A stretch of 64,000 nt of DNA from Asticcacaulis aquaticus (lineage in GTDB: Bacteria; Pseudomonadota; Alphaproteobacteria; Caulobacterales; Caulobacteraceae). Both the position numbers and the translations under genes were made by a program. The stretch is from positions 62,001 to 126,000 of the forward strand of contig NZ_JAQQKX010000012.1 in the NCBI RefSeq assembly GCF_028550415.1, in the 5' to 3' direction. This document shows positions 484-46,196 of the stretch, piece by piece (positions within the stretch are counted from its first letter, which is position 1; each line of letters starts with the position of its first letter). The notes under the pieces are model-generated. The model was not told the origin of the DNA. It saw nothing but the letters and a program-made list of their open reading frames with translations, and ran no database searches.

Positions 484-497
484 TTGACCAAGGTCAA
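484..497 (-). promoter_or_regulatory. FNR-type box upstream of moaA
   Basis: TTGACCAAGGTCAA is an inverted repeat of the FNR/Dnr class (TTGAC-N4-GTCAA). If the centre (490.5) is taken as -41.5 for leftward transcription, a TAATAT hexamer at 456-461 falls exactly at -10. This spacing supports a class II activator promoter for moaA. It also lies just past the 3' end of the NIT-CRP gene. Confidence 0.7.
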
Positions 498-528: not shown

Positions 529-2109
529 TTAAAGATCAGGATTTGGACAATCGTCAGTGTGATGGCGGGGGCAATTGCCCGCCAGTTCGATGTCACAGTA
601 ATCACAAAGAGCAAAAAGGCTGGGTAAAGTGATCTCGTTTCGCTCCACCTCTATACCTTCGTCCTTAAGGGTCTGCAGTGCCCTGGAAAAAGTCTCGGGT
701 TTCATGCCCAGATATCCGGCAATGAGGGATTTGTCATAGGGCAGTTTGAAGTGGGTTCCGCGTTCCTCATTCTGCAGCAACAGCTTGAGCAGAAAACGGC
801 CGACCCGCTGACTAACGGATTTGAGCGTAAGCTGTTCGAACTGGCTTATCATGGCCTGCGAGCGCACAGCGACCGTCGACAGCATATTCATAGCCAGGGT
901 CGAATTAGTCTGCAGCTTTTCGCGCATGATCGAGGATGGGATTGATAGAAGCTCCACCGGCTCGATCGCCTGGGCGCTTACCGGCAGTATCGCGTTGTTG
1001 AAAATGGCCGTTTCGAGCAGTGCATCCCCGACGCTCAAGACCTGAAGAATGGATTCCTGCCCGTCAATGTCGCCCTTGAAAAGCTTCACCCAGCCTTTCA
1101 GAACGATATAGAAGCGAGAAGCCTGTTCGCCCTGCATGAAAATAAGCGCCCCCTTTTCGTGGTGGGTGACGCGGGCAAAGCGAAGGATTTCTTTCAGGTC
1201 CTCGCCTTCTATGCCGGCGAACAGAGGCAGGGTTTTGATACGGTCGGTGTGAGCGGCGAGGATTCCTGTAATTTCAATCGAACCCGGTTTTGACTTTGCG
1301 ACCGGCACCTCAAGATCGACACCGGCGCTTTCACGATTTAGCGAATCCACCATGGCGAGGCTCAGTTCGTGCAGCGCATCCATTTTCTGCGTGAACAGTT
1401 CAAACCACTCTGCCGTATCGATCCCCGCCTGACCGAGTCCACCCACACCCTTCAGAAGGTCCTTGTTGAGCTCGCGGATACGATCAAAAGCGGGGGTACG
1501 CGCGCGTATTTCCTCAAACAAATCCCTTGTGTCGGCATCACACAGGCTGAGGAACATGCGCTCGTATGCATTCTGTTTAGCGATGATATATTCCAGGAGG
1601 CTACGGTCCTCCGGGCCTTGCTGCTCGTCAGACTGCAGGAGATAGCCGCCGAGGGCCCGCTGCCGTCCCACGCGTTCTTTCCAATGCAGAAAGTTCACAA
1701 AGGCTGATACCCGGCCTGGATTATTGTCCGGGTCGAACACGGCCAACTCCTGAATGATATCGATGGCCGGGTTGATGATTTCGCTTGTGTAGAAGCTATG
1801 GATGTCGTCGGGCGTGACCATCCGCGAGATGACGTATTTCCGCCTGGACGGCAGATAATTCACTGCATTCAAAAGAGGTTCAATTTTGGCGCTTTGCTTG
1901 CGCGGCAGCGCGGTAAGCTTACCAATGTTCAGGTCTGACTTTACAAACTGAGCGTCCAGCAGTTCGGAGAACCGACCAGTTGTGCCTCGCAGATAGAGAG
2001 AGGTGACCCCACGCTCTTTTTGTGTGTCATGAACGAAATCACACAGAGTGCCGATTGCAGCCTGATTCATCTTGGCCATTCCGGAAGATTTTTTGGTTGC
2101 CACGATCAT
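529..2109 (-). CDS. NIT-domain CRP/FNR-family transcription regulator (fusion)
   Basis: Predicted nitrate/nitrite-responsive transcription factor. Counting from the ATG at 2107-2109 (526 residues), residues about 15-260 match the NIT nitrate-sensing domain (QKERGVTSLYL near the N-terminus, then WKERVGRQRALGGYL), known from NasR and from sensor kinases. Residues about 290-400 are a cyclic-nucleotide-binding fold and 430-500 a Crp-type helix-turn-helix with the FNR-like recognition motif E-T-F-S-R. The tail has four cysteines, C-x2-C-x7-C-x7-C (502, 505, 513, 521), which could bind a metal or Fe-S cluster. A longer frame begins at 2217 but would start inside an FNR box, so I prefer 2109; 2079 is also possible. 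It lies between moaA and ubiTUV, next to nar. Function is inferred. Confidence 0.82.
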   Translation of the reverse strand: MIVATKKSSGMAKMNQAAIGTLCDFVHDTQKERGVTSLYLRGTTGRFSELLDAQFVKSDLNIGKLTALPRKQSAKIEPLLNAVNYLPSRRKYVISRMVTPDDIHSFYTSEIINPAIDIIQELAVFDPDNNPGRVSAFVNFLHWKERVGRQRALGGYLLQSDEQQGPEDRSLLEYIIAKQNAYERMFLSLCDADTRDLFEEIRARTPAFDRIRELNKDLLKGVGGLGQAGIDTAEWFELFTQKMDALHELSLAMVDSLNRESAGVDLEVPVAKSKPGSIEITGILAAHTDRIKTLPLFAGIEGEDLKEILRFARVTHHEKGALIFMQGEQASRFYIVLKGWVKLFKGDIDGQESILQVLSVGDALLETAIFNNAILPVSAQAIEPVELLSIPSSIMREKLQTNSTLAMNMLSTVAVRSQAMISQFEQLTLKSVSQRVGRFLLKLLLQNEERGTHFKLPYDKSLIAGYLGMKPETFSRALQTLKDEGIEVERNEITLPSLFALCDYCDIELAGNCPRHHTDDCPNPDL

Positions 2110-2203: not shown

Positions 2204-2217
2204 TTGACCTGTATCAA
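2204..2217 (+). promoter_or_regulatory. FNR-type box between NIT-CRP gene and ubiT
   Basis: TTGACCTGTATCAA (TTGAC-N4-ATCAA). With its centre at -41.5, a TATGCC -10 falls at 2240-2245 and transcription would start near 2252, 21 bases before the ubiT start codon. It lies 95 bases upstream of the preferred start of the divergent NIT-CRP gene and could also act on that gene, though I see no good leftward -10. The same 14-mer recurs at 22681. Confidence 0.75.
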
Positions 2218-2272: not shown

Positions 2273-2956
2273 ATGGCACAGGAAGCCGGTTCAGCTCATG
2301 GTTCATTTCAAGGGCTGGGCGCTCTTCAACTATTTGGCATCTTACTGTCGCAAGTCCCTCGTTCTCTTTTGGAGAGGCTGGCATCTGAACTTGAGACTCT
2401 TCTTGCCCTTCGACATCCGGGCCTGTCGGATCGCTTGGGGGAAGCCGAAGGGCGCTCGTATCGTTTCGTGCTCAAGGATTTCCCGATTGATGCACTGGCC
2501 AAGGTGGAAAAGAGCCGGCTTCGGATAGGCCTCCTTGATAAATCCGCCGTCGCCGGCGAGGACGTGCGGGTTTCGGGACGGCTGGCCGCACTATTCGAAT
2601 TGCTACAAGGCGAGCGCGACGGTGATGCCTTGTTCTTTACGCGGGATATCGAGACCAGTGGCAACACGGAGGCGTTGCTGGTGCTGCGCAATGCCCTTGA
2701 AAGCGAAGAAATCGATCTATTCGAACTGCTGAGCGTGCGATGGAGACCTTTCCACCGTACGGTACGTCAGGGACTGACTCTGGCAGCCGGCAGACTGGAT
2801 CGCCTGATTCTACAGTTCGACGACCTGTTTTCCCAAAAGCTTTCGCCGTTTGAATTGGCGCTGGGTGCGCAGGGCCGCCGGATCGCGGACATCGAAAAGC
2901 GGCTGCAACGGCTGGATCGCACAGCCCGCAAGGACGCTGAACATGAAGCGCATTGA
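2273..2956 (+). CDS. ubiT: UbiT, SCP2-domain accessory factor for anaerobic ubiquinone synthesis
   Basis: SCP2-like lipid-binding protein that, with UbiU and UbiV, allows ubiquinone synthesis without oxygen. The family hallmark GDALFFTRDIETSGNTEALL is followed by LRNALESEEIDL; this SCP2 core occupies roughly residues 50-150 of 227. The start is fixed by a strong Shine-Dalgarno (GGAGG, 5 bases before the ATG). It overlaps ubiU by 14 bases, so the three genes form a coupled operon behind an FNR-type box. A ubiquinone-using nitrate respirer needs such a route when oxygen is absent. It is longer than E. coli UbiT, with an extra C-terminal helix region. Confidence 0.88.
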   Translation: MAQEAGSAHGSFQGLGALQLFGILLSQVPRSLLERLASELETLLALRHPGLSDRLGEAEGRSYRFVLKDFPIDALAKVEKSRLRIGLLDKSAVAGEDVRVSGRLAALFELLQGERDGDALFFTRDIETSGNTEALLVLRNALESEEIDLFELLSVRWRPFHRTVRQGLTLAAGRLDRLILQFDDLFSQKLSPFELALGAQGRRIADIEKRLQRLDRTARKDAEHEAH

Positions 2957-3932
2957 GATCATCTGCCCTGCGGGCACGCCGGCCGCGCTACGCGTCGCCA
3001 TCGACGAGGGAGCGGACGCCGTATACTTGGGATTTCGCGATGAAACCAATGCCAGGAACTTTCCAGGCCTGAACTTCTCGAGAGCCGAGTTAGTTGAAGG
3101 CGTGAAATACGCTCACGCGAAAAACCGTCATGTCTATGTCGCGATCAACACCTTCCCCGATGCCGGACGAGAGAAGCTTTGGCATCAGGCTGTAGACGAC
3201 GCCGTCACTTCGGAGGCAGACGCGATCATATTGGCGGATATCGGGCTTCTTGCCTATGCACGAAAAACGCACCCTCATGCCAGGCTGCACCTTTCCGTGC
3301 AGGCGTCGGCTTCAACGGCTGATGCGATTTCCTTTTACGTACACCGGTTCGGCGTTCGACGCGTGGTGCTGCCTCGAGTCCTTACTCTGAAAGATATCAG
3401 CGCAATAAACCGTCAGGTCGATGTCGAAACAGAGGTCTTCGCATTTGGAGGCATGTGCCCGATGGCCGAAGGCCGCTGTTCACTCTCGTCCTACATCACC
3501 GGACAATCGCCCAACCGGAATGGCGTATGCTCGCCGGCGAGCCATGTCGAATATGCAAACGAGGGGGGAGCATTGGCGACGCGGTTAGGCGGCTTCACTA
3601 TCAATCGCTTCTCCGACTCAGAAGGGGCGGGTTATCCAACGCTTTGCAAGGGCAGGTTCGTCGCGCAGGATAAGGCCTCTTATATCTTCGAGGATCCCGT
3701 CAGCCTGAACGTGCTTTCCTCTCTGCCTGAAATAGCAGCCACCGGCGTAAAGGCGCTTAAGATTGAAGGTCGGCAACGCGGTAAGGGATATGTGCGCGAC
3801 ATCGTTCGCACGTTCCGTCAGGCCGTCGACGCCTTCTATGCCAATCGACCCGGTCCAGGGCCCGAGAGTGTTCAGCATCTCTGCGAAGGTCAGGTTGCGA
3901 CCACAGGTGCGTATGAAAAGGGCTGGAGATGA
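2943..3932 (+). CDS. ubiU: UbiU, peptidase-U32-family Fe-S protein for O2-independent ubiquinone hydroxylation
   Basis: U32-family protein of 329 residues that forms a heterodimer with UbiV and supports oxygen-independent hydroxylation of the ubiquinone ring. The four cysteines that bind the 4Fe-4S cluster in E. coli UbiU have clear counterparts at C172, C179, C196 and C235, in MCPMAEGRC, NGVC and TLCKG. The N-terminus (MKRIEIICPAGTPAAL) is typical. The ATG at 2943 lies inside the end of ubiT, and the stop overlaps the ubiV start as ATGA. Confidence 0.9.
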   Translation: MKRIEIICPAGTPAALRVAIDEGADAVYLGFRDETNARNFPGLNFSRAELVEGVKYAHAKNRHVYVAINTFPDAGREKLWHQAVDDAVTSEADAIILADIGLLAYARKTHPHARLHLSVQASASTADAISFYVHRFGVRRVVLPRVLTLKDISAINRQVDVETEVFAFGGMCPMAEGRCSLSSYITGQSPNRNGVCSPASHVEYANEGGALATRLGGFTINRFSDSEGAGYPTLCKGRFVAQDKASYIFEDPVSLNVLSSLPEIAATGVKALKIEGRQRGKGYVRDIVRTFRQAVDAFYANRPGPGPESVQHLCEGQVATTGAYEKGWR

Positions 3933-4828
3933 TAGACAGGCTGACGCTTGGACCATTGCTCTATAACTGGTCTCCCGAAAAGGCGCGGGACTTCTATTTC
4001 GGGGTCGCGGACGAGATGGACGTCGATCGGGTCTACCTTGGTGAAGTCGTTTGTTCAAAACGTCAGCCGTTCCACGAAACCTACTGGCCAGAGGTTGTCG
4101 AGCGCCTCGAACGGGCTGGCAAGCAGGTGGTGTTCTCAACCTTGGCGCTGGTCACTACGGAGCGGGAAATCAAAGGCTTGAGAGAGCTTTGCGCTGACAG
4201 CGAGGACCGGCTGGTCGAGATCAATGATTTGACCCTGCTGTCGCGTTGGACAGGTAAGCCGTTTCTTGTCGGCCCCTACGTCAACATTTACAACGAGTCC
4301 GCGCTTGCGGTTTTCGAAGACATGGGCGCAGTAGGGGCTACCCTGCCGTTCGAACTCCCTCAAAAAACCTTGGTGAGCCTTGCGTCATCGGCGCAGTGCG
4401 CGCTGGAGGTTCAGGTCTTCGGCCGTCTCCCTTTGGCGATCTCAGCTCGGTGTTACCACGCCCGGGCTTTCAGACTGCAGAAGGACAGCTGCCGATTTGT
4501 ATGCGATCAACACCCGGATGGAATGGTGGTCGACACGCTTGATGAACAGCAATTCCTCACGGTCAACGGTACACAGACCCAATCCATGACCTGTGTAAAT
4601 CTTATCCGGGAAACTGCGGCGTTAAAAGCGCTTGGAATTCGCCAGTTGCGTCTGTCTCCGCAAAATGTGGACATGATCGAAGTCGCGCGTGTTTTCCGCG
4701 CAGTCCAGCGCGGAACACTTGCAGGGGATGAGGCATTCGCTCACCTTGAAGGACTGATGCCGCAGTTCCAATTCTCGAACGGATATTTTCATGGCGTGGA
4801 GGGACGACGCCTTTTTGAGGCGAGTTGA
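3929..4828 (+). CDS. ubiV: UbiV, U32-family Fe-S partner of UbiU
   Basis: Second U32-family subunit (299 residues) of the UbiUV complex. Candidate cluster ligands are C42 (VVCSKRQ) and C175, C188 and C192 (RCYHARAF...DSCRFVC), matching the E. coli UbiV arrangement. It starts on the ATGA overlap with ubiU. Its stop codon lies within a perfect FNR box that serves the downstream nar genes, so ubiTUV and nar are adjacent but separately promoted. Confidence 0.9.
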   Translation: MIDRLTLGPLLYNWSPEKARDFYFGVADEMDVDRVYLGEVVCSKRQPFHETYWPEVVERLERAGKQVVFSTLALVTTEREIKGLRELCADSEDRLVEINDLTLLSRWTGKPFLVGPYVNIYNESALAVFEDMGAVGATLPFELPQKTLVSLASSAQCALEVQVFGRLPLAISARCYHARAFRLQKDSCRFVCDQHPDGMVVDTLDEQQFLTVNGTQTQSMTCVNLIRETAALKALGIRQLRLSPQNVDMIEVARVFRAVQRGTLAGDEAFAHLEGLMPQFQFSNGYFHGVEGRRLFEAS

Positions 4829-4838
4829 TCTTGATCAA
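4825..4838 (+). promoter_or_regulatory. Perfect FNR box upstream of narK1
   Basis: TTGATCTTGATCAA is an exact TTGAT-N4-ATCAA palindrome, the strongest FNR-type site in the window. It overlaps the ubiV stop codon and lies 112 bases before the narK1 start. No convincing -10 is visible at the expected place (about 4861-4866), so the exact start of transcription is unclear. Confidence 0.85.
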
Positions 4839-4949: not shown

Positions 4950-6284
4950 ATGCAGGGGCAGAGTTCATCGGAAGGTTTGGTCAAGGTCTCGGGTGCCGCC
5001 CAGGTTCGGGCGTTGAGTCTGACGACCATTGCCTTCACTATAAGTTTCGCCGTCTGGACGATTTTCGCCATCGTCGGCGTTCAGATCAAGAAGGAGCTGG
5101 GGCTCAGTGAGACCCAGTTCAGCCTATTGTTGGGCACGCCAATCCTCACCGGTTCGCTGGTGCGTCTGTTCATGGGTATCTGGGCCGACCAGTATGGTGG
5201 CCGGCCCGTGATGTTCCTGGTGATGATCTCATCAGCGATCTGCACCTGGCTTCTCATCTATTCGAAGACCTACGAGATGTTACTGGTGACGGCCCTTGGT
5301 CTGGGCGTCGCCGGCGGAAGCTTCGTGGTCGGGATTTCGTACCTGTCGAAGTGGTACCCGAAAGCCCGTCAGGGAACGGCGCTGGGGATTTACGGCATGG
5401 GCAATGTGGGCTCTGCTGTAACCAAGATTTGCGCTCCGTTCGTCATGGTGGCCTTCGGATGGCATGCCGTCGCGCAAATCTGGGCAGCTGCACTGGCCAT
5501 CATGGCAGTGCTGTTCTTTATCCTGACCAAGGATGAGCCGGAACTGATCGAAAGGCGGCGGACGGGCGCCAAGGCTAAGTCGACGGCTAGGGCGCTCAGC
5601 CCGCTGAAGAAGCTGCAGGTCTGGCGTTTCTCCGTCTACTACTTCTTCGTCTTTGGCGGCTATGTGGCGCTCGCCCTATGGCTGCCGCGTTATTATGTCG
5701 GCGCCTACGGTCTTGATATCGCTCACGCCGGCTTGCTGGCCGCCAGCTTCTCCATTGCGGGCTCGATGTTTCGTGCGGTCGGAGGGTATTTGTCCGACAC
5801 GATCGGTGCGCGCAAGGTGATGTATATCACCTTCATTGTCTGCGTGATCTGCTGCTTCATCCTCAGCTACCCGGCAACCGACTATGTGGTGCACGGCATC
5901 AAGGGTGACATCCGCTTCTCCATCAGCCTCGGCTTTTGGCCCTTCACTGTCGTGGTGTTCTGCCTCGGCCTCTTTATGTCGTTCGGCAAGGCGGCGGTCT
6001 ACAAGCACATCCCCGTCTACTATCCCGAAAACGTTGGGTCGGTCGCGGGTATTGTAGGCCTGATCGGCGGGCTGGGAGGTTTCTTCCTTCCACTGGCTTT
6101 TGGCATTCTCAACGATCTCACCAATGTGTGGACCAGCTGCTTCATGCTGATGTTCGCTCTGGTCGCCATAGCGCTGACCTGGATGCACCTCGCCATTCAA
6201 CGAATGGAGAAAGCCCGTCATCCCGAACTGCGTGGACCGAAATTCTTCCCGGAACTCGATCAAGCCGTCGGCCCAAAAGCCTGA
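4950..6284 (+). CDS. narK: NarK-family nitrate/nitrite transporter 1
   Basis: Major-facilitator membrane protein of 444 residues with about 12 transmembrane segments. It carries NarK-type glycine-rich nitrate-signature segments: ALGIYGMGNVGSAVTKI in the middle and a second in the C-terminal half (SVAGIVGLIGGLGGFFLP). An upstream GTG (4920) is in frame, but the ATG at 4950, preceded by GGAAAGGACGGG, is the better start. It is first of narK1-narK2-narGHJI. In Paracoccus and relatives NarK1 (nitrate/proton) and NarK2 (nitrate/nitrite antiport) are often fused; here they are separate. Which one this is cannot be settled from sequence alone. Confidence 0.9.
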   Translation: MQGQSSSEGLVKVSGAAQVRALSLTTIAFTISFAVWTIFAIVGVQIKKELGLSETQFSLLLGTPILTGSLVRLFMGIWADQYGGRPVMFLVMISSAICTWLLIYSKTYEMLLVTALGLGVAGGSFVVGISYLSKWYPKARQGTALGIYGMGNVGSAVTKICAPFVMVAFGWHAVAQIWAAALAIMAVLFFILTKDEPELIERRRTGAKAKSTARALSPLKKLQVWRFSVYYFFVFGGYVALALWLPRYYVGAYGLDIAHAGLLAASFSIAGSMFRAVGGYLSDTIGARKVMYITFIVCVICCFILSYPATDYVVHGIKGDIRFSISLGFWPFTVVVFCLGLFMSFGKAAVYKHIPVYYPENVGSVAGIVGLIGGLGGFFLPLAFGILNDLTNVWTSCFMLMFALVAIALTWMHLAIQRMEKARHPELRGPKFFPELDQAVGPKA

Positions 6285-6314
6285 TCCTTATTCCTCCCTC
6301 TCGGAGAGAGAAAA

Positions 6315-7643
6315 ATGTATGCCAATCTGACTGCCAAACAGGCCCTGGATCAGTGGAATCCTGAAGATGATGCCTTCTGGTCCGCCAAGGGCAAATCGAT
6401 CGCCACCCGCAATCTGTGGATTTCGGTTTTCTGCCTGTTTCTCGCCTTCGCCACCTGGATGATCTTTTCCGTGGTGGCGGTAAATCTCAACAGTGCGGGC
6501 TTCAACTTCACCCAGGCACAGTTGTTCACGCTTCTGGCCATGCCGGGCTTGTCCGGAGCGGTGATGCGGATCTTCTGTTCCTTCATCGTCCCGATCGTCG
6601 GCGGCCGCAACTGGACCGTTATCAGCACCTCGCTACTGCTCATCCCTGCGATTGGGATTGGACTGGCGGTGCAGAACCCGAACACCTCCTATGCAACGAT
6701 GGTTTTGCTGGCTTTGTCATGCGGTTTCGGTGGCGGCAACTTCTCGTCCTCAATGTCGAATATCAGCTTCTTTTTCCCAAAGAAGGCGCAAGGGGCAGCA
6801 TTGGGCATCAACGCAGGCCTCGGCAATCTCGGCGTCAGCGCGGTGCAGTTCGTCGTACCTCTGGTCATCGGCTTCGCGGCTTTTGGTTCGCTGGGCGGCG
6901 AAGCGCAGACCCTGGTCAAGGAAGGCGTCGAAAAGACCGTCTGGCTTCAAAATGCAGGTTTCGTCCTTGTCGGTCCGATCGTGCTGGCGGTTCTGGCCGC
7001 GGCTTTCGGCATGAACAATCTGAAGTGCGCCAACGCGCCGCTGTCTGAGCAGCTCGTCATCTTCAAGCGCAAGCACATGTATCTGACGACCTGGCTCTAC
7101 ATCATGTCGTTCGGTTCGTTCATCGGCTATTCCGCTGCTTTCCCGATGTTGCTGAAGTCTCAGTTTGTCGAAATCAACGCCCTGCAACTGGCATTCATCG
7201 GTCCCTTGCTGGGCGCACTGATCCGCCCGCTTGGCGGCATGGTTTCGGACAAGCTGGGTGGCGCAATCGTGACGCTGTGGTCACTGTTCTTCATGATCGC
7301 TGCTGCGCTTGGGGTGGTGTGGTTCATTCAGGACGGCAGCCGCAACTTCGTGGGCTTCTTCATCGCCTTCATGGTGCTGTTCACGGCGTCGGGCGTCGCG
7401 AATGGCTCGGTCTTCCGCATGATCGGCGTGATCTTTCCGCCGAAGGAAAAAGCCCCGGTTCTGGGCTTCTCCGGCGCGGTTGCAGCCTTTGGCGCCTTCT
7501 ATATCCCCAAGGGCTTCGGCTGGTCGATCGAGTCCACAGGGCACGCTGACGCCGCGCTCTATGGCTTCATCCTCTACTACCTGACCTGCGTAGCCGTTCT
7601 CTACGTCTGGTACCTCGGCAAGCGCGCCGAAGTGAAGTGCTGA
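6315..7643 (+). CDS. narK: NarK-family nitrate/nitrite transporter 2
   Basis: Second NarK-type transporter, 442 residues and about 12 transmembrane segments. The nitrate signatures are clear: SNISFFFPKK followed by ALGINAGLGNLGVSAVQF, and in the C-terminal half GSVFRMIGVIFPP with GFSGAVAAFGAFYIP. It starts 30 bases after narK1 behind GGAGAGAGAAAA. It probably exports nitrite in exchange for nitrate, by analogy with NarK2-type proteins. narG follows 33 bases later. Confidence 0.9.
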   Translation: MYANLTAKQALDQWNPEDDAFWSAKGKSIATRNLWISVFCLFLAFATWMIFSVVAVNLNSAGFNFTQAQLFTLLAMPGLSGAVMRIFCSFIVPIVGGRNWTVISTSLLLIPAIGIGLAVQNPNTSYATMVLLALSCGFGGGNFSSSMSNISFFFPKKAQGAALGINAGLGNLGVSAVQFVVPLVIGFAAFGSLGGEAQTLVKEGVEKTVWLQNAGFVLVGPIVLAVLAAAFGMNNLKCANAPLSEQLVIFKRKHMYLTTWLYIMSFGSFIGYSAAFPMLLKSQFVEINALQLAFIGPLLGALIRPLGGMVSDKLGGAIVTLWSLFFMIAAALGVVWFIQDGSRNFVGFFIAFMVLFTASGVANGSVFRMIGVIFPPKEKAPVLGFSGAVAAFGAFYIPKGFGWSIESTGHADAALYGFILYYLTCVAVLYVWYLGKRAEVKC

Positions 7644-7676
7644 GCCAAAGACAACAAAAATACCGAGGATAAAATA

Positions 7677-10600
7677 ATGAGCCAGTTTTTGGATAGAATT
7701 TCGTTCTTCCGTCAGGAGAAGCAAAGCTTCTCCAATGGCCACGGCGCCAAGACGACGGAATCGCGCGAATGGGAAAAGGGTTACCGGGCGCGCTGGCAGC
7801 ACGACAAGATCGTGCGCTCCACGCACGGCGTGAACTGTACCGGTTCGTGCAGCTGGAAGGTTTACGTCAAGAATGGTCTTGTCACCTGGGAGACCCAGCA
7901 GACGGACTATCCGCGTACCCGTCCGGACATGCCGAACCACGAGCCGCGAGGCTGCGCCCGTGGCGCCAGCTACTCCTGGTATCTTTATAGCGCCAACAGA
8001 CTGAAATATCCGCTCATCCGCTCGAAGCTGATGAAGGCATGGCGCCGGGCAAAATCGCGGTTTGGCGACCCGGTCAAGGCTTGGGCCGCCGTCGTCGGCG
8101 ATGCCAAGGTACGCAATGACTACCAGCAGGCCCGCGGCCGGGGTGGTTTTGTCCGCGCGAGCTGGGACGAGGTGAACGAGATCATTGCCGCGTCCAATAT
8201 TCATACAGCCAAGACCTACGGTCCGGACCGGATAATCGGGTTCTCACCCATTCCGGCCATGTCCATGGTGTCTTACGCCGCCGGCAGCCGGTATCTTTCG
8301 CTCATCGGCGGCGTCTGCATGAGCTTCTACGACTGGTATTGCGACCTGCCGCCGTCGAGCCCTCAAACCTGGGGTGAGCAAACGGACGTGCCGGAAAGTG
8401 CCGACTGGTACAATTCGGGATTTATCATCGCCTGGGGCTCGAACGTTCCTCAGACCCGTACCCCCGACGCCCACTTCTTCACCGAGGTGCGTTATAAGGG
8501 TACCAAGACGGTTGCCGTGACGCCCGACTATTCGGAAGTGGCGAAACTCGCCGACCTTTGGATGCATCCCAAACAGGGAACGGATACGGCGCTGGCCCTC
8601 GCCATGGGCCACGTCATCCTCACCGAATGGCATCTGAAGGGAAAAAGCGACTACTTCGACGACTACTGCCGTTCCTTCACGGACATGCCGTTCCTGGTAC
8701 GTCTGATCGAAAAAGACGGCCGACTGGTGCCCGAGCGTATGATCCGGGCCTCGGATTTTGAGGGCAGCCTCGACATGGACAACAACCCCGATTGGAAACC
8801 GGTCGTGGTCTGTGGTCGCAAAGAGCAGATCCGCGTGCCGAATGGAACGGCCGGCTCTCGCTGGGGCCAAACGGGCAAGTGGAACCTCGAACCCAAGGAT
8901 GAGAAGACGGGCGAGGATATATGGCCGCTTCTGACCATGCTGGATCACAGCCAAAAGGAGGTAAAGTCTGTCGCGTTCCCGTACTTTGGTAACCTTGAGC
9001 ACGACTTCTTCAACTCCACCGGCCACGACAGCATTCTGGAACGCAATGTCCCGGCGGTGAAGCTAGACCTGAAGGATGGTCCGGCCTACGTCACGAGCGT
9101 CTTTGATCTGTTCGCGGCCAACTATGGCGTGGACCGCGGGCTCGGCGGCGATAATGTCGCGACGTCTTTCGATGACGATGTACCGTACACGCCGGCCTGG
9201 CAGGAGGCGATCACCGGTGTGCCGCGCGATCAGGTGATTGAGATTGCCCGTCAGTTCGCCGAGAATGCGCACAAGACGCACGGTCGTTCCATGGTCATTG
9301 TCGGCGCCGGATTGAACCACTGGTACCACATGGACATGACGTATCGCGCCATCATCAACATGCTGGTGATGTGCGGATGTATCGGCAAGTCGGGCGGCGG
9401 CTGGAGTCACTATGTTGGCCAAGAGAAGCTGCGACCCCAAACCGGCTGGGCGCCGCTGGCCTTTGGCACGGACTGGAGCCGTCCGCCACGTCAGCAGAAC
9501 TCGACCTCCTTCTTTTACGCGCATACCGACCAGTACCGGTATGAAAAACTGGAGATGGACGAAATCCTGTCTCCGCTGGCCGATCGCAACGAGTGGGCAG
9601 ATTTGTCGCTCATCGACTGCAACGTCAAGGCAGAACGGATGGGCTGGCTGCCGTCGGCCCCACAGCTCGAAGTCAATCCGCTGGAGCTTGGCCGTCGCAT
9701 TCATGCTGAAGGTGCCGATGCTGCCAGCCATGTCGCGCAAGGTCTCAAAAGCGGGGATCTCAAGCTGTCGTGTCTCGATCCCGATAATCCGGTGAACTGG
9801 CCGCGCAATATGTTCGTGTGGCGTTCGAACATTCTGGGGTCAAGCGGCAAGGGTCACGAATATTTCCTGAAGCATCTGCTCGGTACTCAGCATGGTGTGC
9901 AGGGAGTCGATCTCGGGCAGGAAGGCGCCAAGCTTCCGAACGAGGTCGTCTGGCATGAGGACGCGCCGGAAGGGAAACTTGACCTGCTGGTTACGCTCGA
10001 TTTCCGTATGTCGACCACCTGTATGTATTCGGACATCGTGTTGCCGACAGCCACCTGGTACGAGAAAAACGACCTCAATACGTCCGACATGCACCCCTTC
10101 ATTCACCCGTTGTCAGCGGCGGTGGATCCGGCCTGGGAAGCGCGTTCGGACTGGGACATCTACAAAGGCATTGCCAAGACCTTTTCGGAGCTTTGCGAGG
10201 GCCACCTTGGGGTCGAGCATGATGTGGTGATGAACCCCATCAAGCACGATACGGCCAATGAGCTGGCCCAGCCGATGGATGTCCAGGACTGGTATAAGGG
10301 TGAATGCGAGCCGATCCCGGGCAAGACGATGCCCACGGTGACCCTGGTCGAACGCGATTACCCCAACACGTTCAAAAAGTTCACGTCCTTGGGACCGCTT
10401 CTGACCAAGCTCGGCAATGGGGGCAAGGGTATCGGCTGGAATACCGAGCCGGAGCTGAAACTGCTAGGCGAGATGAACTATACCGTAACCGAGGACGGCA
10501 TTTCGAAAGGATTGCCGAAGATCGATACCGCCATCGACGCCGCCGAAGTCATCATGACGCTCGCACCCGAAACCAACGGACACGTGGCGGTCAAGGCGTG

Positions 10601-11453
10601 GAATGCCCTGTCTAAGGCGACCGGACGCAAACACGTCCACCTGGCTGAGGCGCGCGAAGACGAGCATATCCGGTATCGCGATATCCAGGCGCAACCGCGC
10701 AAGATCATCTCGTCGCCGACCTGGAGCGGGATCGAGTCCGAGCATGTCAGCTACACGGCGGGCTATACCAATGTCCACGAACTGATCCCCTGGCGCACCC
10801 TGACGGGCCGTCAACAGCTCTATCAGGATCACAAGTGGATGCGGGCCTTCGGCGAATCCCTGTGCGTCTATCGTCCGCCGGTCGATTTGAAGACAACCGC
10901 GCCCGTCATCCATCGCTTCGGGAAGGACCGCAAGCAGGTCGTGCTGAACTTCATCACGCCGCACCAGAAGTGGGGCATTCACTCGACCTATTCGGATAAC
11001 CTCTTGATGCTCACCCTGTCGCGTGGCGGGCCAATCGTGTGGATTTCCGAAATCGACGCCAGGAAGATCGGGGTCGAGGACAATGATTGGGTGGAGGCCT
11101 ACAATTCGAACGGCGCGCTGACGGCGCGGGTGGTCGTGTCCCAGCGTGTGCCGGAAGGCATGATCATGATGTATCACGCGCAGGAAAAGATCATCAATGT
11201 GCCGACGTCAGAGATCACGGGCGCGCGGGGCGGGATCCACAATTCCGTAACGCGGACCGTTCTGAAGCCTACCCACATGATCGGTGGCTACGTCCAGCTC
11301 GCTTACGATTTCAACTACTACGGCACGGTGGGCGCCAATCGGGACGAGTTCGTCATCCTCAGAAAAATGAAGAAGGTGAACTGGGACAATGTCGAGGGCT
11401 ACGGCCGCGGCGAACTCCCGACTGTCGACAATCGCACCGCGCAAGGAGCCTGA
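7677..11453 (+). CDS. narG: Respiratory nitrate reductase alpha subunit NarG
   Basis: Catalytic molybdenum subunit (1258 residues; E. coli 1247) of the membrane-bound, cytoplasm-facing quinol:nitrate oxidoreductase. The FS0 cluster ligands H50, C54, C58 and C93 are present (THGVNCTGSC and RGC), and D223 in YDWYCDLPP corresponds to the Mo-ligand Asp222 of E. coli. The start is preceded by CCGAGGATAAAATA. It needs the molybdopterin products of moaA/moaB and molybdate from modABC, both encoded nearby. Full length, no disruption seen. Confidence 0.98.
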   Translation: MSQFLDRISFFRQEKQSFSNGHGAKTTESREWEKGYRARWQHDKIVRSTHGVNCTGSCSWKVYVKNGLVTWETQQTDYPRTRPDMPNHEPRGCARGASYSWYLYSANRLKYPLIRSKLMKAWRRAKSRFGDPVKAWAAVVGDAKVRNDYQQARGRGGFVRASWDEVNEIIAASNIHTAKTYGPDRIIGFSPIPAMSMVSYAAGSRYLSLIGGVCMSFYDWYCDLPPSSPQTWGEQTDVPESADWYNSGFIIAWGSNVPQTRTPDAHFFTEVRYKGTKTVAVTPDYSEVAKLADLWMHPKQGTDTALALAMGHVILTEWHLKGKSDYFDDYCRSFTDMPFLVRLIEKDGRLVPERMIRASDFEGSLDMDNNPDWKPVVVCGRKEQIRVPNGTAGSRWGQTGKWNLEPKDEKTGEDIWPLLTMLDHSQKEVKSVAFPYFGNLEHDFFNSTGHDSILERNVPAVKLDLKDGPAYVTSVFDLFAANYGVDRGLGGDNVATSFDDDVPYTPAWQEAITGVPRDQVIEIARQFAENAHKTHGRSMVIVGAGLNHWYHMDMTYRAIINMLVMCGCIGKSGGGWSHYVGQEKLRPQTGWAPLAFGTDWSRPPRQQNSTSFFYAHTDQYRYEKLEMDEILSPLADRNEWADLSLIDCNVKAERMGWLPSAPQLEVNPLELGRRIHAEGADAASHVAQGLKSGDLKLSCLDPDNPVNWPRNMFVWRSNILGSSGKGHEYFLKHLLGTQHGVQGVDLGQEGAKLPNEVVWHEDAPEGKLDLLVTLDFRMSTTCMYSDIVLPTATWYEKNDLNTSDMHPFIHPLSAAVDPAWEARSDWDIYKGIAKTFSELCEGHLGVEHDVVMNPIKHDTANELAQPMDVQDWYKGECEPIPGKTMPTVTLVERDYPNTFKKFTSLGPLLTKLGNGGKGIGWNTEPELKLLGEMNYTVTEDGISKGLPKIDTAIDAAEVIMTLAPETNGHVAVKAWNALSKATGRKHVHLAEAREDEHIRYRDIQAQPRKIISSPTWSGIESEHVSYTAGYTNVHELIPWRTLTGRQQLYQDHKWMRAFGESLCVYRPPVDLKTTAPVIHRFGKDRKQVVLNFITPHQKWGIHSTYSDNLLMLTLSRGGPIVWISEIDARKIGVEDNDWVEAYNSNGALTARVVVSQRVPEGMIMMYHAQEKIINVPTSEITGARGGIHNSVTRTVLKPTHMIGGYVQLAYDFNYYGTVGANRDEFVILRKMKKVNWDNVEGYGRGELPTVDNRTAQGA

Positions 11454-11457
11454 TCCC

Positions 11458-12984
11458 ATGAAAGTACGTGCTCAGATCGGCATGGTGCTGAATCTTGATA
11501 AGTGCATTGGTTGCCATACCTGTTCGGTAACCTGCAAGAACGTTTGGACCTCACGCCAGGGCGTTGAATACGCCTGGTTCAACAACGTCGAAACCAAGCC
11601 CGGCGTGGGCTATCCAAACGACTGGGAAAACCAGGATCGCTGGAAGGGCGGCTGGAAACGGCACGCCTCGGGCAAGATCACGCCCAAGCAAGGCGGCAAG
11701 TGGCGTACCTTGGCCGGGCTTTTCTCCAACCCGAACATGCCGTCTATCGACGACTACTACGAGCCCTTCACCTTCGACTACGAGCACCTGCAGAAGTCGC
11801 CGGAAGCGAAGACCATGCCGACGGCTCAGCCGGTGTCGGTCATCACCGGCAAGAAGATGAAGAAGATTAACTCGGGTCCCAACTGGGAAGAGATCCTGGG
11901 CGGCGAGTTCGAGAAGCGCAGCAAGGACAAGAATTTCGAGAACACCCAGAAGGAAATCTATGGGCAGTTCGAAAATACCTTCATGATGTATCTGCCGCGG
12001 CTATGTGAGCACTGCCTCAATCCGGCGTGCGTGGCCGCTTGTCCGTCAGGCGCTATTTACAAGCGTGAAGAGGACGGCATTGTCCTTATCGATCAGGACA
12101 AATGTCGCGGCTGGCGCATGTGCGTTTCGGCCTGCCCCTACAAGAAGATCTACTTCAACTGGGAGTCCGGCAAGTCGGAGAAGTGCACCTTCTGCTATCC
12201 GCGTATCGAGGCGGGTGAGCCCACAGTCTGTTCGGAAACCTGCGTCGGGCGCATTCGCTATCTGGGCGTTCTGCTCTATGACGCCGACCGGATCGAAGCC
12301 TCTGCGTCGGTTGAGGACGAACAGAACCTCTACCACGCGCAACTGGACATGTTCCTCGATCCCGAAGACCCAGAAGTCATCCGGGCCGCGAAGGCGGAGG
12401 GCATTCCTGACAGCTGGCTTGAAGCGGCGCGCCGTTCGCCCGTTTACAAGATGGCCATCGACTGGAAGATCGCCTTCCCGCTCCATCCGGAATACCGCAC
12501 CCTGCCGATGGTCTGGTACGTGCCGCCGCTGTCTCCGATCCAGAACGCAGCAGCAAAGGGCCAGGTCGGCCTCAATGGAATCATCCCTGATGTCAAGTCA
12601 CTGCGCATTCCTCTGACCTATCTCGCCAATATGCTTACGGCAGGCGAGGAGCGGCCAGTGCAACTCGCATTGGAGCGGATGCTGGCCATGCGCGCCTATA
12701 TGCGTGGCCGGCACGTAGACGGCGTGGCAATGCCTGAGCTCCTGGAGCGGACGGGCATGGATACGGGCATGGTCGACGAGATGTACCGGTATCTGGCCAT
12801 CGCCAATTACGAAGACCGGTTCGTCATTCCGACTTCGCACAAGGAGTATGCCGAGAACGCCTTCGACATGAAGTCTTCTTGCGGCTTTTCATTCGGAAAT
12901 GGCTGCTCGACCGGTGACAGCAAAACCAATCTCTTCGTTTCCCCTAAGCGCAAAAATCTCTTCGGAGGCACTCATGTCGGCTGA
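11458..12984 (+). CDS. narH: Nitrate reductase beta subunit NarH
   Basis: Electron-transfer subunit of 508 residues carrying four Fe-S clusters. Cysteine motifs are visible at the N-terminus (CIGCHTCSVTC) and mid-protein (CEHCLNPACVAACP, CRGWRMCVSACP, CTFC). The Trp in CRGW is the usual NarH substitution that makes one cluster 3Fe-4S. The start is the ATG right after narG (GCAAGGAGCC ahead of it); an in-frame longer version would lie inside narG. It overlaps narJ by 11 bases. Confidence 0.97.
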   Translation: MKVRAQIGMVLNLDKCIGCHTCSVTCKNVWTSRQGVEYAWFNNVETKPGVGYPNDWENQDRWKGGWKRHASGKITPKQGGKWRTLAGLFSNPNMPSIDDYYEPFTFDYEHLQKSPEAKTMPTAQPVSVITGKKMKKINSGPNWEEILGGEFEKRSKDKNFENTQKEIYGQFENTFMMYLPRLCEHCLNPACVAACPSGAIYKREEDGIVLIDQDKCRGWRMCVSACPYKKIYFNWESGKSEKCTFCYPRIEAGEPTVCSETCVGRIRYLGVLLYDADRIEASASVEDEQNLYHAQLDMFLDPEDPEVIRAAKAEGIPDSWLEAARRSPVYKMAIDWKIAFPLHPEYRTLPMVWYVPPLSPIQNAAAKGQVGLNGIIPDVKSLRIPLTYLANMLTAGEERPVQLALERMLAMRAYMRGRHVDGVAMPELLERTGMDTGMVDEMYRYLAIANYEDRFVIPTSHKEYAENAFDMKSSCGFSFGNGCSTGDSKTNLFVSPKRKNLFGGTHVG

Positions 12985-13648
12985 ACATCAAAAAGCTCTT
13001 ACCTTCAAGGCTCTCGGCCTCATGCTCTGTTATCCGACACCGGAATGGACGGACAACCTGCCTGAACTGCTCACTGTGATTCAGGCGGAAGGCCTTCTCG
13101 GTCCGGCGCAGATTGACGGTGTGAATGCACTTGCCGATCACCTGCGCTCGGATGTCATCGCCGCGCAAGAGTCCTATGTCGCGACCTTCGACCGCGTCCG
13201 CTCACTCTCGCTGCATCTGTTCGAGCATGTGCACGGCGAATCCCGCGACCGCGGTCAGGCGATGATCGATCTGATCGATCGCTACAGGGAGGTCGATCTG
13301 ATTCCGCCCACCAATGAACTTCCGGACTACCTTCCGATGTTCCTCGAATATCTGAGTAATCTGGATATCCGCGAGGCCAAGGAAGCGCTGTCTGAGCCAG
13401 TGCATATTATCGAGGCCGTGGCGAAGCGGCTTCAGGATCGGGAAAGTCCGTACCTGGCGGTGTTCAATGCCCTTCTGCATCTCTTGGGCAAGCCCGCTCT
13501 GCGCAAGGCTCATGTGATCATCGGCGGACAGAAGACGGCCGATCCCACTCTTGAAGACATCGACAAGGAGTGGGCCGAAATGCCCGTGGAATTCCTCGGC
13601 GCCACAGCGCCTGACACCGCGCAGCCCCACGCGCGCTGCGGTTCATAG
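12974..13648 (+). CDS. narJ: Nitrate reductase assembly chaperone NarJ
   Basis: Cytoplasmic chaperone (224 residues) needed for Mo-cofactor insertion into NarG and membrane docking of NarGH; not part of the final enzyme. Family features include ALGLMLCYPTPEW near the N-terminus and LSLHLFEHVHGESRDRGQAM in the middle. The ATG at 12974 overlaps the end of narH and has GGAGGCACTC ahead of it. Between narH and narI as in other nar operons. Confidence 0.95.
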   Translation: MSAEHQKALTFKALGLMLCYPTPEWTDNLPELLTVIQAEGLLGPAQIDGVNALADHLRSDVIAAQESYVATFDRVRSLSLHLFEHVHGESRDRGQAMIDLIDRYREVDLIPPTNELPDYLPMFLEYLSNLDIREAKEALSEPVHIIEAVAKRLQDRESPYLAVFNALLHLLGKPALRKAHVIIGGQKTADPTLEDIDKEWAEMPVEFLGATAPDTAQPHARCGS

Positions 13649-13657
13649 GAGCCTGTC

Positions 13658-14347
13658 ATGATCGATCAATATTACACCTTTTTTTTCGGGCTGTACCCGT
13701 ATATCGCCCTGAGCATTCTCGTGATCGGCAGCATCATTCGCTACGACCGGGAGCCCTACACATGGAAGGCGTCTTCATCGCTTCTGCTGGCGGACAAGGG
13801 GCTGCGTATCGGGAATATTCTGTTCCACATCGGCGTGTTGTTCATCTTCGGCGGACACCTTGTCGGTCTTCTAACGCCACACTGGGTCTATGCCCCTTTC
13901 ATCACGGCCGAGCAGAAACAGATGGTCGCGATTGTCGCGGGTGGTATTGCCGGCGTCATCGGCTTTGTCGGCCTGACCATTCTTGTCTTTCGCCGGCTGT
14001 TCGTGGCGCGTATCCGTCAGACCAGTTCCTTCTCTGACATGGCGGTGCTGCTTTTGTTATGGGTGCAGATCACTCTGGGCCTGACCACGATACCCTTTTC
14101 GCTGGGGCACCACGACGCCACTATTATGCTGAAGCTGTGCGACTGGGCTCAGTCTATTTTCACCTTCCAGCCGGGCGCTGCTGACTACATCAAGGGGCTT
14201 GCCTGGCCGTACCAGAGCCACATCATTCTGGGGCTCACCATGTTCGTCCTGTTCCCATTCACCCGCCTGGTGCACATGCTGAGCGTACCGGTAAAATATG
14301 TATGGCGCCCCTATCAGGTCGTTCGCAGCCGTATGGCGAAGCGCTGA
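13658..14347 (+). CDS. narI: Nitrate reductase gamma subunit NarI (cytochrome b)
   Basis: Membrane diheme cytochrome b (229 residues, five predicted transmembrane segments) that oxidises ubiquinol and passes electrons to NarH. Candidate heme-ligand histidines lie in HIGVLFIFGGHLVGL and in the C-terminal HIILGLTMFVLFPFTRLVHML. The start follows TAGGAGCCTGTC. No menaquinone genes are seen in this window, which fits ubiquinol as electron donor and the neighbouring ubiTUV genes. Confidence 0.96.
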   Translation: MIDQYYTFFFGLYPYIALSILVIGSIIRYDREPYTWKASSSLLLADKGLRIGNILFHIGVLFIFGGHLVGLLTPHWVYAPFITAEQKQMVAIVAGGIAGVIGFVGLTILVFRRLFVARIRQTSSFSDMAVLLLLWVQITLGLTTIPFSLGHHDATIMLKLCDWAQSIFTFQPGAADYIKGLAWPYQSHIILGLTMFVLFPFTRLVHMLSVPVKYVWRPYQVVRSRMAKR

Positions 14348-16192: not shown

Positions 16193-16247
16193 GGCCTTCA
16201 TTCACCGCACGTGCTTTTTTGTCTGAAAGCAAATTATGGAGGCGGCG

Positions 16248-17474
16248 ATGACTGCAGCCCGTCACAAGGTAATCTCACGTCCAGGCGCGCAGCCTGCAAA
16301 GCCGGAGAGCGGCTTACCCTTTTTGAGCATAGGGTTTCGGCCACTGTTTCTGTGCGCCGCTGCCTTCGCGCCTCTGGCGCTGGTCTATTTCATATATACC
16401 TTCGCTCACGGCTCGACATCCTGGCCGAGCCGGTTTTCAGCCGTTGACTGGCATCGCCACGAGATGATTTTCGGGTATGCCATGGCGATCATCGCCGGCT
16501 TCCTCTTTACCGCGGTTAAGAACTGGACTAGCCAGCCTACACCTAAGGGAGCGTGGCTGGCGGCGATTGCGGGCATATGGATCGTGGGCCGCGTGGCGGT
16601 CCTGTTCTCTGCGTCAATGCCGGCGCTGGAGGCCATGATCCTTGATTTGCTCTTTCCGCTGGCTGTCGCGTTTGGGATTGCCATCCCTTTGATCAAGGCC
16701 AAGAACAAGCGAAATGTGTTTTTCATCGTGCTGCTGCTGCTTCTTGCCGTTGCAAATGGTCTCACCTGGCTGGGTCAAAGCGACCTTGGAATCGCAATCG
16801 CCCTGAACATCGTCCTGATGATGATCATTATCATTGGCGGCCGCGTGATAGCCATGTTCACAGAGCGGCCGCTGGGGTTGATGCTGAAGCGCCACCCCAA
16901 GGTTGACGTTATTGTCCTTGTTACATCCTTGGCGGCCTTTCTGCTGGAAATCGCGACGCACCTTTACGACGGCTTGCCAAGACCCATTATCGGTACAGCT
17001 TTTCTCTTCGCTGCTACGGCAAATGCCTGGCGCTTCAGCAGCTGGGAGACACTGAAGACGGGAAAGCATGCCCTGATTTGGGTGCTGCATGCCGGCTACG
17101 CCTGGCTCATCGTCGGTCTGGCCTTTAAGGCTGCCCATTTCCTCGGTGCAGATATTTCGTTCTCCATAGCAACGCATGCTCTTACGTCAGGTGCGATCGG
17201 CGTCATGACGCTTGGCTTCATTTCGCGCGTTGCGCTGGGGCACACCGGCCGCCCTCTTGTCGCTGGCACTGATATGGCTGTTGCATTCTGGCTTATAAAC
17301 CTCGCGGCATTCTGTCGCGTCTTTGGAATGTGGCTGCTCCCTGAAGGATCGCGGACCTTCTACACCTTGGCTGCAGCCTTCTGGTGCCTGGCTTTCGTAT
17401 TCTTCCTCTATCGATATACGCCTTATCTCCTATCCCCCCGCGCGGATGAATCTCCCCGTTCTAAGTCCACTTGA
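16248..17474 (+). CDS. nnrS: NnrS family membrane protein (first copy)
   Basis: Heme-copper-type membrane protein of 408 residues with about 12 hydrophobic segments, from a family linked to relief of nitric-oxide stress in denitrifiers. Conserved segments include FRPLFLCAAAFAPLAL, VDWHRHEMIFGYAMAIIAGF and SGAIGVMTLGFISRVALGHTG. The start is the second ATG (16248), with GGAGGCGGCG just before it. Its stop codon lies within the FNR-type box that serves nrdD. Its place next to nitrate reductase fits protection from NO made from nitrite. Confidence 0.88.
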   Translation: MTAARHKVISRPGAQPAKPESGLPFLSIGFRPLFLCAAAFAPLALVYFIYTFAHGSTSWPSRFSAVDWHRHEMIFGYAMAIIAGFLFTAVKNWTSQPTPKGAWLAAIAGIWIVGRVAVLFSASMPALEAMILDLLFPLAVAFGIAIPLIKAKNKRNVFFIVLLLLLAVANGLTWLGQSDLGIAIALNIVLMMIIIIGGRVIAMFTERPLGLMLKRHPKVDVIVLVTSLAAFLLEIATHLYDGLPRPIIGTAFLFAATANAWRFSSWETLKTGKHALIWVLHAGYAWLIVGLAFKAAHFLGADISFSIATHALTSGAIGVMTLGFISRVALGHTGRPLVAGTDMAVAFWLINLAAFCRVFGMWLLPEGSRTFYTLAAAFWCLAFVFFLYRYTPYLLSPRADESPRSKST

Positions 17475-17484
17475 TCCGGGTCAA
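17471..17484 (+). promoter_or_regulatory. FNR-type box upstream of nrdD
   Basis: TTGATCCGGGTCAA (TTGAT-N4-GTCAA). With the centre at -41.5 the predicted start is near 17519 and TAGTAT at 17507-17512 sits exactly at -10. The nrdD ATG follows at 17557. This is among the best-formed FNR-type promoters here; it overlaps the nnrS stop codon. Confidence 0.82.
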
Positions 17485-17556
17485 GTGCGGCAGTCGCAAC
17501 TACATCTAGTATGCGATTTGCAACAATTGACCATATGTTGATCTATGGAGGATCTT

Positions 17557-19548: not shown

Positions 19549-19551
19549 CCT

Positions 19552-20241
19552 ATGTGGGCGAAGCTTCCCGTCACCAGCCTCACACCGTTTACGTTTCAGG
19601 ATTTTCCTGAGCATACGGCATGCATTTTATGGTTCTCCGGTTGTAACATGGCATGTGCCTATTGCCACAACCCGGATCTGGTGACGGGAGCTTTCAAACG
19701 GTTGCCTTCAGAGCGTATCGAGGGGTTCCTGGAGTCACGGCGCGGGCTTCTGGAAGGCGTCGTTCTTTCCGGTGGTGAATGTACGCTATCGAGCGCTCTG
19801 CCCTGGTTATGTCGCAAGCTGAAGGCGATGGGCTTTAAGGTCAAGATCGATACCAACGGCTCCCGGCCAGATCGTCTTGAGGCGCTCTTGGGTGACGATC
19901 TGATCGATTTCGTTGCGCTTGATTTCAAGGCGCCGAAGACAAAATATCGTCAGGTAACTCACCTCGACGATTGGGCGTCTTTTGAGCGCTCCCTGAGATT
20001 GTTGATCGGGTCTGATGTCGGTCGTGAAGTCAGGACCACGGTACACACCGACCTGCTGGATGAGCATGACGTCGACGCCATAACATCGACACTTCAGGAT
20101 CTGGGCTACCAGAACAGCTATGTGGTGCAGGGGTATAAGGATGGTCCCACCTTGGGAAGCCTCGCACCACAGAAGCGCCGGTTCGATCGATCGCGTTTAG
20201 CCCCGCGACATTTCCCGTTCGTTTTCAGAAACATGGAATAG
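19552..20241 (+). CDS. nrdG: Anaerobic RNR activating enzyme NrdG (radical SAM)
   Basis: Radical-SAM activase of 229 residues that generates the glycyl radical on NrdD. The cluster motif CNMACAYC is followed by HNPDL, and GVVLSGGECTL supplies the GGE motif. It follows nrdD with no room for a separate promoter. The length matches the longer PflA-like form of activase rather than the 150-residue E. coli NrdG. Confidence 0.93.
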   Translation: MWAKLPVTSLTPFTFQDFPEHTACILWFSGCNMACAYCHNPDLVTGAFKRLPSERIEGFLESRRGLLEGVVLSGGECTLSSALPWLCRKLKAMGFKVKIDTNGSRPDRLEALLGDDLIDFVALDFKAPKTKYRQVTHLDDWASFERSLRLLIGSDVGREVRTTVHTDLLDEHDVDAITSTLQDLGYQNSYVVQGYKDGPTLGSLAPQKRRFDRSRLAPRHFPFVFRNME

Positions 20242-20244
20242 GCT

Positions 20245-22621: not shown

Positions 22622-22680
22622 GACGAGATCACCTTAATTAAAAGCTGGCTCTCTGTATTCGGTGACGCTGGTCTTAAGCC

Positions 22681-22694
22681 TTGACCTGTATCAA
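22681..22694 (+). promoter_or_regulatory. FNR-type box between porin gene and moaB
   Basis: TTGACCTGTATCAA, identical to the box at 2204. Rightward, CTATGA at 22717-22722 lies at the -10 place for a start near 22729, 12 bases before the moaB ATG. Leftward, the porin ATG is 60 bases away, so both genes could be served by this one site. Confidence 0.72.
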
Positions 22695-22740
22695 CGCGGA
22701 CAACTGGTCGCAGGGGCTATGAAAGAGGAGGAGGCGAGCT

Positions 22741-23256: not shown

Positions 23257-23280
23257 GCAGGCCTACCCTCGAGGGTCGTA

Positions 23281-23682: not shown

Positions 23683-23709
23683 AGATTTTCTTCACTACCT
23701 CGTCATGGC

Positions 23710-23723
23710 TTGATGCACGTCAA
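23710..23723 (+). promoter_or_regulatory. FNR-type box upstream of modA
   Basis: TTGATGCACGTCAA (TTGAT-N4-GTCAA). With the centre at -41.5 the start falls near 23758 and the TATATC at 23746-23751 is at -10. A ModE-type palindrome covers this -10, so activation by low oxygen and repression by molybdate could meet on this promoter. Confidence 0.7.
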
Positions 23724-23728
23724 ACCAG

Positions 23729-23752: not shown

Positions 23753-23781
23753 TTTCGCTCTGTAGGTGTTCGGAGCGTTGA

Positions 23782-24528: not shown

Positions 24529-24530
24529 AC

Positions 24531-46180: not shown

Positions 46181-46196
46181 GGCGTCCTCGCGGAGA

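Follow-up and report, generated by a model that had tools for sequence, protein, structure and literature searches.

A NIT domain joined to a CRP/FNR body beside nar

In a 64,000-nucleotide stretch of the Asticcacaulis aquaticus genome (contig NZ_JAQQKX010000012.1, positions 62,001 to 126,000; the whole stretch is called the window here), a minus-strand gene at 529..2109 is an open reading frame (ORF) of 526 amino acids that joins a NIT domain to a regulator body of the CRP/FNR family, a design that we call NIT-CRP. Diverging from it on the plus strand are ubiT, ubiU and ubiV, for oxygen-independent ubiquinone synthesis (2273..4828, all three above their NCBIfam cut-offs), followed by two narK-type transporter genes and narG, narH, narJ and narI (4950..14347, assigned by NCBIfam, the first narK-type gene scoring below the NarK cut-off), which would be the target operon. 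An earlier note, made from the sequence of this DNA, had described a NIT domain fused directly to a CRP/FNR body in a single soluble protein adjacent to ubiTUV and nar, and had proposed a one-component, nitrate-responsive transcription factor. Its reading of the architecture is right, apart from the directness of the joint, as is the adjacency that it reported, and its reading of the function is most probably right.

All three Pfam domains lie well above their curated cut-offs: NIT (PF08376; residues 24-257, window 1339..2040, minus strand; 4e-33, 116.2 bits against 24.9), cNMP_binding (PF00027; residues 316-402, 904..1164, minus; 9.4e-19, 67.6 against 27.5), and HTH_Crp_2 (PF13545; residues 434-503, 601..810, minus; 3.9e-13, 49.6 against 27). 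The recognition helix, PETFSR (residues 471-476, within 601..810 on the minus strand), contains the E-T-F-S-R that the earlier note had picked out, which is kept in all 30 loci of this design that we collected and fits the E-x-x-S-R of FNR-type recognition. The Cys-rich tail is likewise as described, with C502-x2-C505-x7-C513-x7-C521 (547..606, minus) spaced exactly so in 30 of 30 loci; the only other cysteines of the window protein are at positions 23 and 190, and the N-terminal Cys motif that holds a [4Fe-4S] cluster in FNR proper was not found in it. Cyclic AMP-binding CRP has an Arg-Ser motif in its phosphate-binding cassette; the corresponding region of the window protein, located by eye, reads P-V-S-A-Q-A. 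An alternative start at Met14 (window 2070) is possible, and several orthologues begin there.

The full-length structure model has a mean predicted local distance difference test score (pLDDT) of 76.3 with a low-confidence stretch at residues 261-279, and about 30 low-confidence residues link the NIT and CRP parts, so that the fusion itself stands and direct joining does not. Because the 50 full-length Foldseek matches listed were CRP-family structures, the NIT part was also modelled on its own (from an alignment of 28 sequences; mean pLDDT 89.9), and its only Protein Data Bank (PDB) match at E < 0.001 was NasR (4AKK, two chains; E 2e-6, TMq 0.69), with which phmmer agrees. Placing the N-terminus in another family can be rejected, since NIT scores far above its cut-off and NasR is the sole fold match at that threshold. 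NIT-CRP resembles NasR in being a soluble one-component protein with an N-terminal NIT domain and a Q-x-E-R plus G-x-x-R pocket; the two differ in output, NasR acting on nas by RNA antitermination through its ANTAR domain, whereas NIT-CRP is predicted to act on respiratory nar by DNA binding. Even at E up to 1 the window protein has no ANTAR match, and a CRP helix-turn-helix (HTH) stands in its place. The highest 19-residue mean hydropathy is 1.31, too low for a membrane helix and in keeping with a single soluble protein, and we therefore take NIT-CRP to be cytosolic, like NasR. By sequence, the closest solved structures for the CRP part are DNR/NnrR-type regulators (3h3z and 3fx3, E 5e-36; DNR itself, 3dkw, 1.5e-30), whose chains of 227-237 residues have no room for a NIT domain, unlike NIT-CRP.

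Distribution and gene neighborhood

The 30 NIT-CRP loci represent 28 distinct proteins (L028, L029, and L111 being identical), and in 28 of the 30 the gene diverges from a narK-type gene, the contigs of the other two (L026 and L027) ending first. Within the available DNA, narG follows the narK-type gene in 27 of the 30, and ubiTUV lies between NIT-CRP and the nar genes in the window, L022, and L023. In a sample of 398 genomes of the order, 22 have a full-length NIT-CRP, spread over six genera of five families, and one more has a partial copy. All 22 full-length carriers have narG above its cut-off, compared with 105 of the 398 genomes overall, a co-occurrence with a hypergeometric probability of 3e-14, which ignores shared ancestry.

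The family is rare outside the order: full-length copies occur in 3 of 398 genomes of a phylum sample (counting the window, the third belonging to another family of the same class) and in 1 of 240 of a class sample, which is the window itself. Among 25 genomes of the same genus, the window included, only two (G000 and G005) have a full-length copy. Nine of the loci come from public contigs, some of them the same contigs as survey genomes, and include proteins of Asticcacaulis tiandongensis (60% identity) and Pseudaquidulcibacter saccharophilus. The fusion is not an artefact of assembly, given its recurrence in the 22 full-length copies of the order sample and in one from another family. Spread on plasmids was set aside, as no plasmid record has one place covering at least 80% of the protein. 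In the genome of the window, NIT-CRP is the sole NIT match found.

FNR-type boxes in the divergent regions

The two boxes that the earlier note had located, at 2204 and 4825, are both perfect matches to TTGAY-N4-RTCAA: TTGACCTGTATCAA (2204..2217, plus strand) lies in the divergent region shared by NIT-CRP and ubiT, and TTGATCTTGATCAA (4825..4838, plus) lies upstream of the first narK-type gene. Six perfect boxes occur in the window, compared with 0.21 expected, centered about 53-137 nucleotides before start codons; for moaA the distance was taken from a start at 354, while its frame puts the start nearer 359, so that this distance is about 5 nucleotides too long. Among the NIT-CRP loci, 23 of 25 distinct divergent regions contain a perfect box, whereas shuffles averaged 0.08 and never exceeded 1; the bounds of these regions are approximate because they derive from tblastn matches. 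The 25 remain from 28 after removal of L024, where the gap is 3.9 kb, and of two regions that duplicate another one.

The whole genome has 17 perfect boxes, seven of which fall within 28 kb around the NIT-CRP locus; the seventh lies outside the window (in L157), 39 nucleotides before a YtfE-like gene. The ten elsewhere in the genome were compared with mechanical ORFs only, and several lie inside them. These may be noise: scaled up from the window shuffles, about 13 would be expected per genome. The chance estimates disagree, however, as a reversed-pattern control gave only one per strand.

NIT-CRP and the NarR position

In Paracoccus, NarR is described as a nitrate/nitrite-responsive activator of nar, with FnrP adding oxygen control (PMC8139620, PMC3541799), and in alphaproteobacteria, according to a review, NarR takes over the function of NarXL (PMC8139620). 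A CRP of 232-234 amino acids is encoded in the divergent slot ahead of narK-narGHJI in Paracoccus ferrooxidans, Tistrella mobilis, and Fuscovulum ytuae; we take these three as NarR by position, their records calling them cyclic nucleotide-binding domain proteins, and P. pantotrophus has a copy 98.7% identical to the slot CRP of P. ferrooxidans. Like NIT-CRP, they are CRP/FNR-family proteins without an N-terminal Fe-S motif, encoded divergently from narK-narGHJI. In a CRP tree of 58 rows, from which two identical rows (L028 and L029) were left out, the three slot CRPs form a clade with seven FtrB-like proteins (100/100 support) that contains no NIT-CRP and includes the second CRP of the window (47053-47844).

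With an alignment of this NarR/FtrB-like clade as query, we examined 57 of the 83 available nar genomes that lack NIT-CRP and found a member no more than 10 kb from narG in 50 of them; in the other seven the member is on another contig or missing. Among 23 NIT-CRP genomes, none has a member within 10 kb of narG, the copy in the window lying about 36 kb away, and none of the other 22 carrier genomes examined has a strong match to the clade (< 1e-40). Because a NarR-clade CRP holds the slot in nar relatives without NIT-CRP and never in the carriers examined, NIT-CRP appears to stand in NarR's place, and the simplest reading is that it does NarR's job with a different and recognizable sensor.

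In the same tree, one NIT-CRP group holds the window protein and a second holds most of the other members from the order together with G1091. Two NIT-less proteins, L132 and L133, are nested in the second group, which suggests that both lost the NIT domain, and the starred branches of the tree force at least two changes of the NIT label. No supported branch joins the NIT-CRP groups, so that the fusion may have arisen once or more than once.

Above the PF13545 cut-off, the genome of the window has four matches: NIT-CRP, the NarR/FtrB-like CRP, one CRP with another helix type, and one short ORF that by eye looks like an ArsR-type repressor. The Crp HTH model PF00325, which finds matches in E. 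coli and Caulobacter vibrioides, has no match in this genome.

A probable one-component regulator of nitrate respiration

Taken together, the divergence from nar, the conserved FNR-type boxes, and the occupation of the slot held elsewhere by the NarR clade strongly support the earlier proposal of a one-component regulator of nitrate respiration. We consider it probable that NIT-CRP is a cytosolic, one-component CRP/FNR factor that reads nitrate or nitrite and activates the divergent narK-narGHJI operon through TTGAY-N4-RTCAA boxes, in NarR's place. The N-terminal NIT domain would read nitrate, nitrite, or both, and inhibition between the NIT domain and the CRP dimer would be relieved in a NasR-like manner, letting the CRP/FNR body bind its boxes and exert positive control over the operon. 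In the genome of the window, control would extend to local support genes, namely ubiTUV, nrdD, moaA and other molybdenum-cofactor genes, and those of molybdate uptake.

Several observations weigh against this interpretation. In two of the 25 divergent regions no box is perfect: one region has a box with one mismatch and the other has none. The carrier genomes are related, so that the counts are not independent, and no supported clade of the CRP tree brings all NIT-CRPs together. The genome also encodes another CRP with an E-x-x-S-R helix (47053-47844) that could read the same boxes. Finally, the pocket residues discussed below do not discriminate, since all 30 other NIT proteins compared from the class have them too; these 30 were not a random draw but the top match from each of the 30 best-scoring genomes among 64 with a match.

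NIT-CRP is not a new kind of system, since both NIT one-component regulators (NasR) and CRP/FNR activators of nar (NarR) are known. The earlier note knew of no characterized protein of this design, and we likewise found no description of one in the open-access library searched, in which Shu 2003 and Boudes 2012, the key papers on NIT and NasR, were covered via citing papers only; PMC10356946 mentions, without more detail, a nitrate/nitrite sensing domain in a Phaeobacter protein. Undescribed in the literature searched are the combination of NIT with CRP, its residency at nar in part of the lineage, and the possible dual input considered below. With a recognizable sensor domain joined to a DNA-binding regulator at nar, nitrate sensing in this lineage can be tested with one soluble protein and one promoter. 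The locus also documents a swap of regulators at an operon whose gene order is otherwise unchanged, and NIT-CRP, as a candidate nitrate-responsive transcription factor of compact size, could be of use in biosensors.

Oxygen, ligand, and other readers of the boxes

The earlier note had also suggested that the Cys tail could add a redox input, which is plausible. Among close NIT-less relatives of NIT-CRP, three CRPs end in four-Cys tails, with the same spacing in L131 (9633-10358) and C-x2-C-x7-C-x4-C in L132 (9382-10146) and L133 (9735-10478). All three adjoin ccoN, ccoO, ccoP, and ccoG genes with FNR-type boxes nearby; the arrangement is divergent for L132 and L133, whereas L131, whose place in the tree is unsure because of a long branch, has these genes on the same strand. 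Operons for cbb3 oxidases are classic oxygen-controlled genes, and these CRPs are candidate oxygen-responsive sister regulators. With NIT-CRP they form a natural pair, NIT-bearing at nar and NIT-less at cco, that could help to separate the contribution of the NIT domain from that of the Cys tail.

This raises the possibility that NIT-CRP has two inputs, an extension of the probable nitrate-reading role: the NIT domain would read nitrate while the tail holds an oxygen-labile Fe-S cluster, so that nar would be on only without oxygen and with nitrate, merging the tasks of Paracoccus FnrP and NarR. The tail is exact in all 30 NIT-CRPs, even though identity to the window protein falls to 34-36% in the most distant rows of the first alignment; this is consistent with such a function, as is the position of all three close four-Cys relatives at cbb3-oxidase operons. 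PF00325 was not found in 14 of 24 carrier genomes, that of the window included, which points the same way; against this, the other 10 carriers do have a match, and in four of these (L168-L171) it is an FNR-like protein with N-terminal cysteines. Bacillus Fnr, which is not known to have a NIT domain, provides a precedent. It too combines a CRP/FNR body with a Cys-rich C-terminal extension, whose cysteines bind an oxygen-labile [4Fe-4S] cluster (PMC3520743), although its spacing (C-x2-C-x4-C plus Asp) differs from that of the NIT-CRP tail, in which any cluster is putative and the four cysteines could instead bind zinc or be structural. Also unfavorable are six Cys-tailed CRPs of a different tail type and clade (L134 and L189-L193), around which the available stretches contain no cco or nar match. 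Oxygen may thus be read by the tail and nitrate by NIT; we regard the two-input arrangement as possible but lean slightly against it. In a fuller scenario, a Cys-tailed oxygen-responsive CRP, of a kind that persists without NIT beside cbb3-oxidase genes, would have been joined with NIT to give a single-protein AND gate for anaerobic nitrate respiration, with NIT sensing nitrate and a C-terminal Cys4 Fe-S cluster sensing oxygen; this gate would have taken over from NarR at nar and, in some genomes, also from FNR. We offer this tentatively, with about the same weight as the two-input arrangement itself.

The six CRPs of the other tail type have tails such as VCDNCS...DCPTH, and five of the six loci come from the same genus. 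The stretches around L189-L193 and L134 contain 3, 5, 6, 3, 3, and 2 perfect FNR-type boxes, respectively.

What the NIT domain reads can be addressed through its pocket. The helix 1 residues Q47-C-E-R50 and the helix 5 residues G173-Q-E-R176 of NasR align with Q30-K-E-R33 and G148-R-Q-R151 of the window protein (within 1339..2040, minus strand); the NasR numbers are those of the aligned chain minus 27, which match residue numbers given in PMC7496416 (E175, R176, and others). G-x-x-R is described as a nitrate motif, of which NasR keeps both arginines with one glycine replaced by glutamine (PMC8199190). The pocket residues, R33 and R151 included, are invariant in 30 of 30 NIT-CRP loci. Conservation cannot serve as proof of nitrate binding, because all 30 other NIT proteins compared have the same residues, and with the pocket arginines equally intact there, nitrate and/or nitrite is only the inferred ligand. 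NIT chemoreceptors and kinases share the sensor family and pocket with NIT-CRP; of the 30 compared, 26 have a chemoreceptor hallmark (counted with a second pattern, the first having matched none of the 30), whereas NIT-CRP is by its domains a DNA-binding regulator. The NIT domain could then have lost or changed its ligand and serve as a dimerization or allosteric module, the signal entering through the Cys tail or the CRP cavity. That the NIT domain of PA4520 does not bind nitrate, according to PMC6381276, and the failure of the pocket residues to discriminate both fit this alternative, but among close relatives the NIT domain tracks the nitrate genes, being present at nar in 28 of 28 resolved neighborhoods and absent from the three CRPs at cco, and we consider a changed ligand unlikely.

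A further alternative is that the boxes are read mainly by the second CRP of the window (47053-47844, minus strand), with NIT-CRP secondary. Its membership in the NarR clade and its PESLSR recognition helix speak for this. Its distance from narG, its position next to an alternative oxidase gene (46227-46925) and cco genes, and the presence of no more than a one-mismatch box in the surrounding stretch (45001-48300) speak against it, as does the retention of the box in most scanned regions of carriers that lack a strong NarR-clade match; we judge this improbable. That NIT-CRP is instead a NarR orthologue with an added domain, as its shared place and orientation with the positional NarRs of Paracoccus, Tistrella, and Fuscovulum might suggest, is rejected as highly improbable, because those proteins, without NIT and without a Cys tail, fall with the FtrB-like CRPs in a separate clade from all NIT-CRPs.

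Further features of the locus

The remaining perfect boxes of the window, all on the plus strand, lie upstream of other genes. One (484..497) precedes moaA, which is on the minus strand, runs off the window start, and has its product above the NCBIfam MoaA cut-off; another (17471..17484) precedes nrdD. A third (22681..22694) lies between a MoaB-like gene (22741-23256, plus; below the NCBIfam cut-off) and a gene diverging from it (21395-22621, minus) that matches Alginate_exp weakly, and the last (23710..23723) precedes modA (23782-24528; ModA above the NCBIfam cut-off). Downstream of nar, an anaerobic island at 16236-25951 contains two NnrS genes, nrdD and nrdG, the MoaB-like gene, modA, modB, and a modC-like gene; three of its promoters have FNR-type boxes.

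The YtfE-like gene outside the window (L157:764-2065, at about window position -4150) matches the iron-sulfur repair protein YtfE below the NCBIfam cut-off and is adjoined by a MobA-like gene, also below its cut-off. In L026, 3.3 kb without nar or ubi matches precede the contig end. In L024, about 3.8 kb of unassigned DNA with further perfect boxes separate NIT-CRP (at 8001) from the narK gene.
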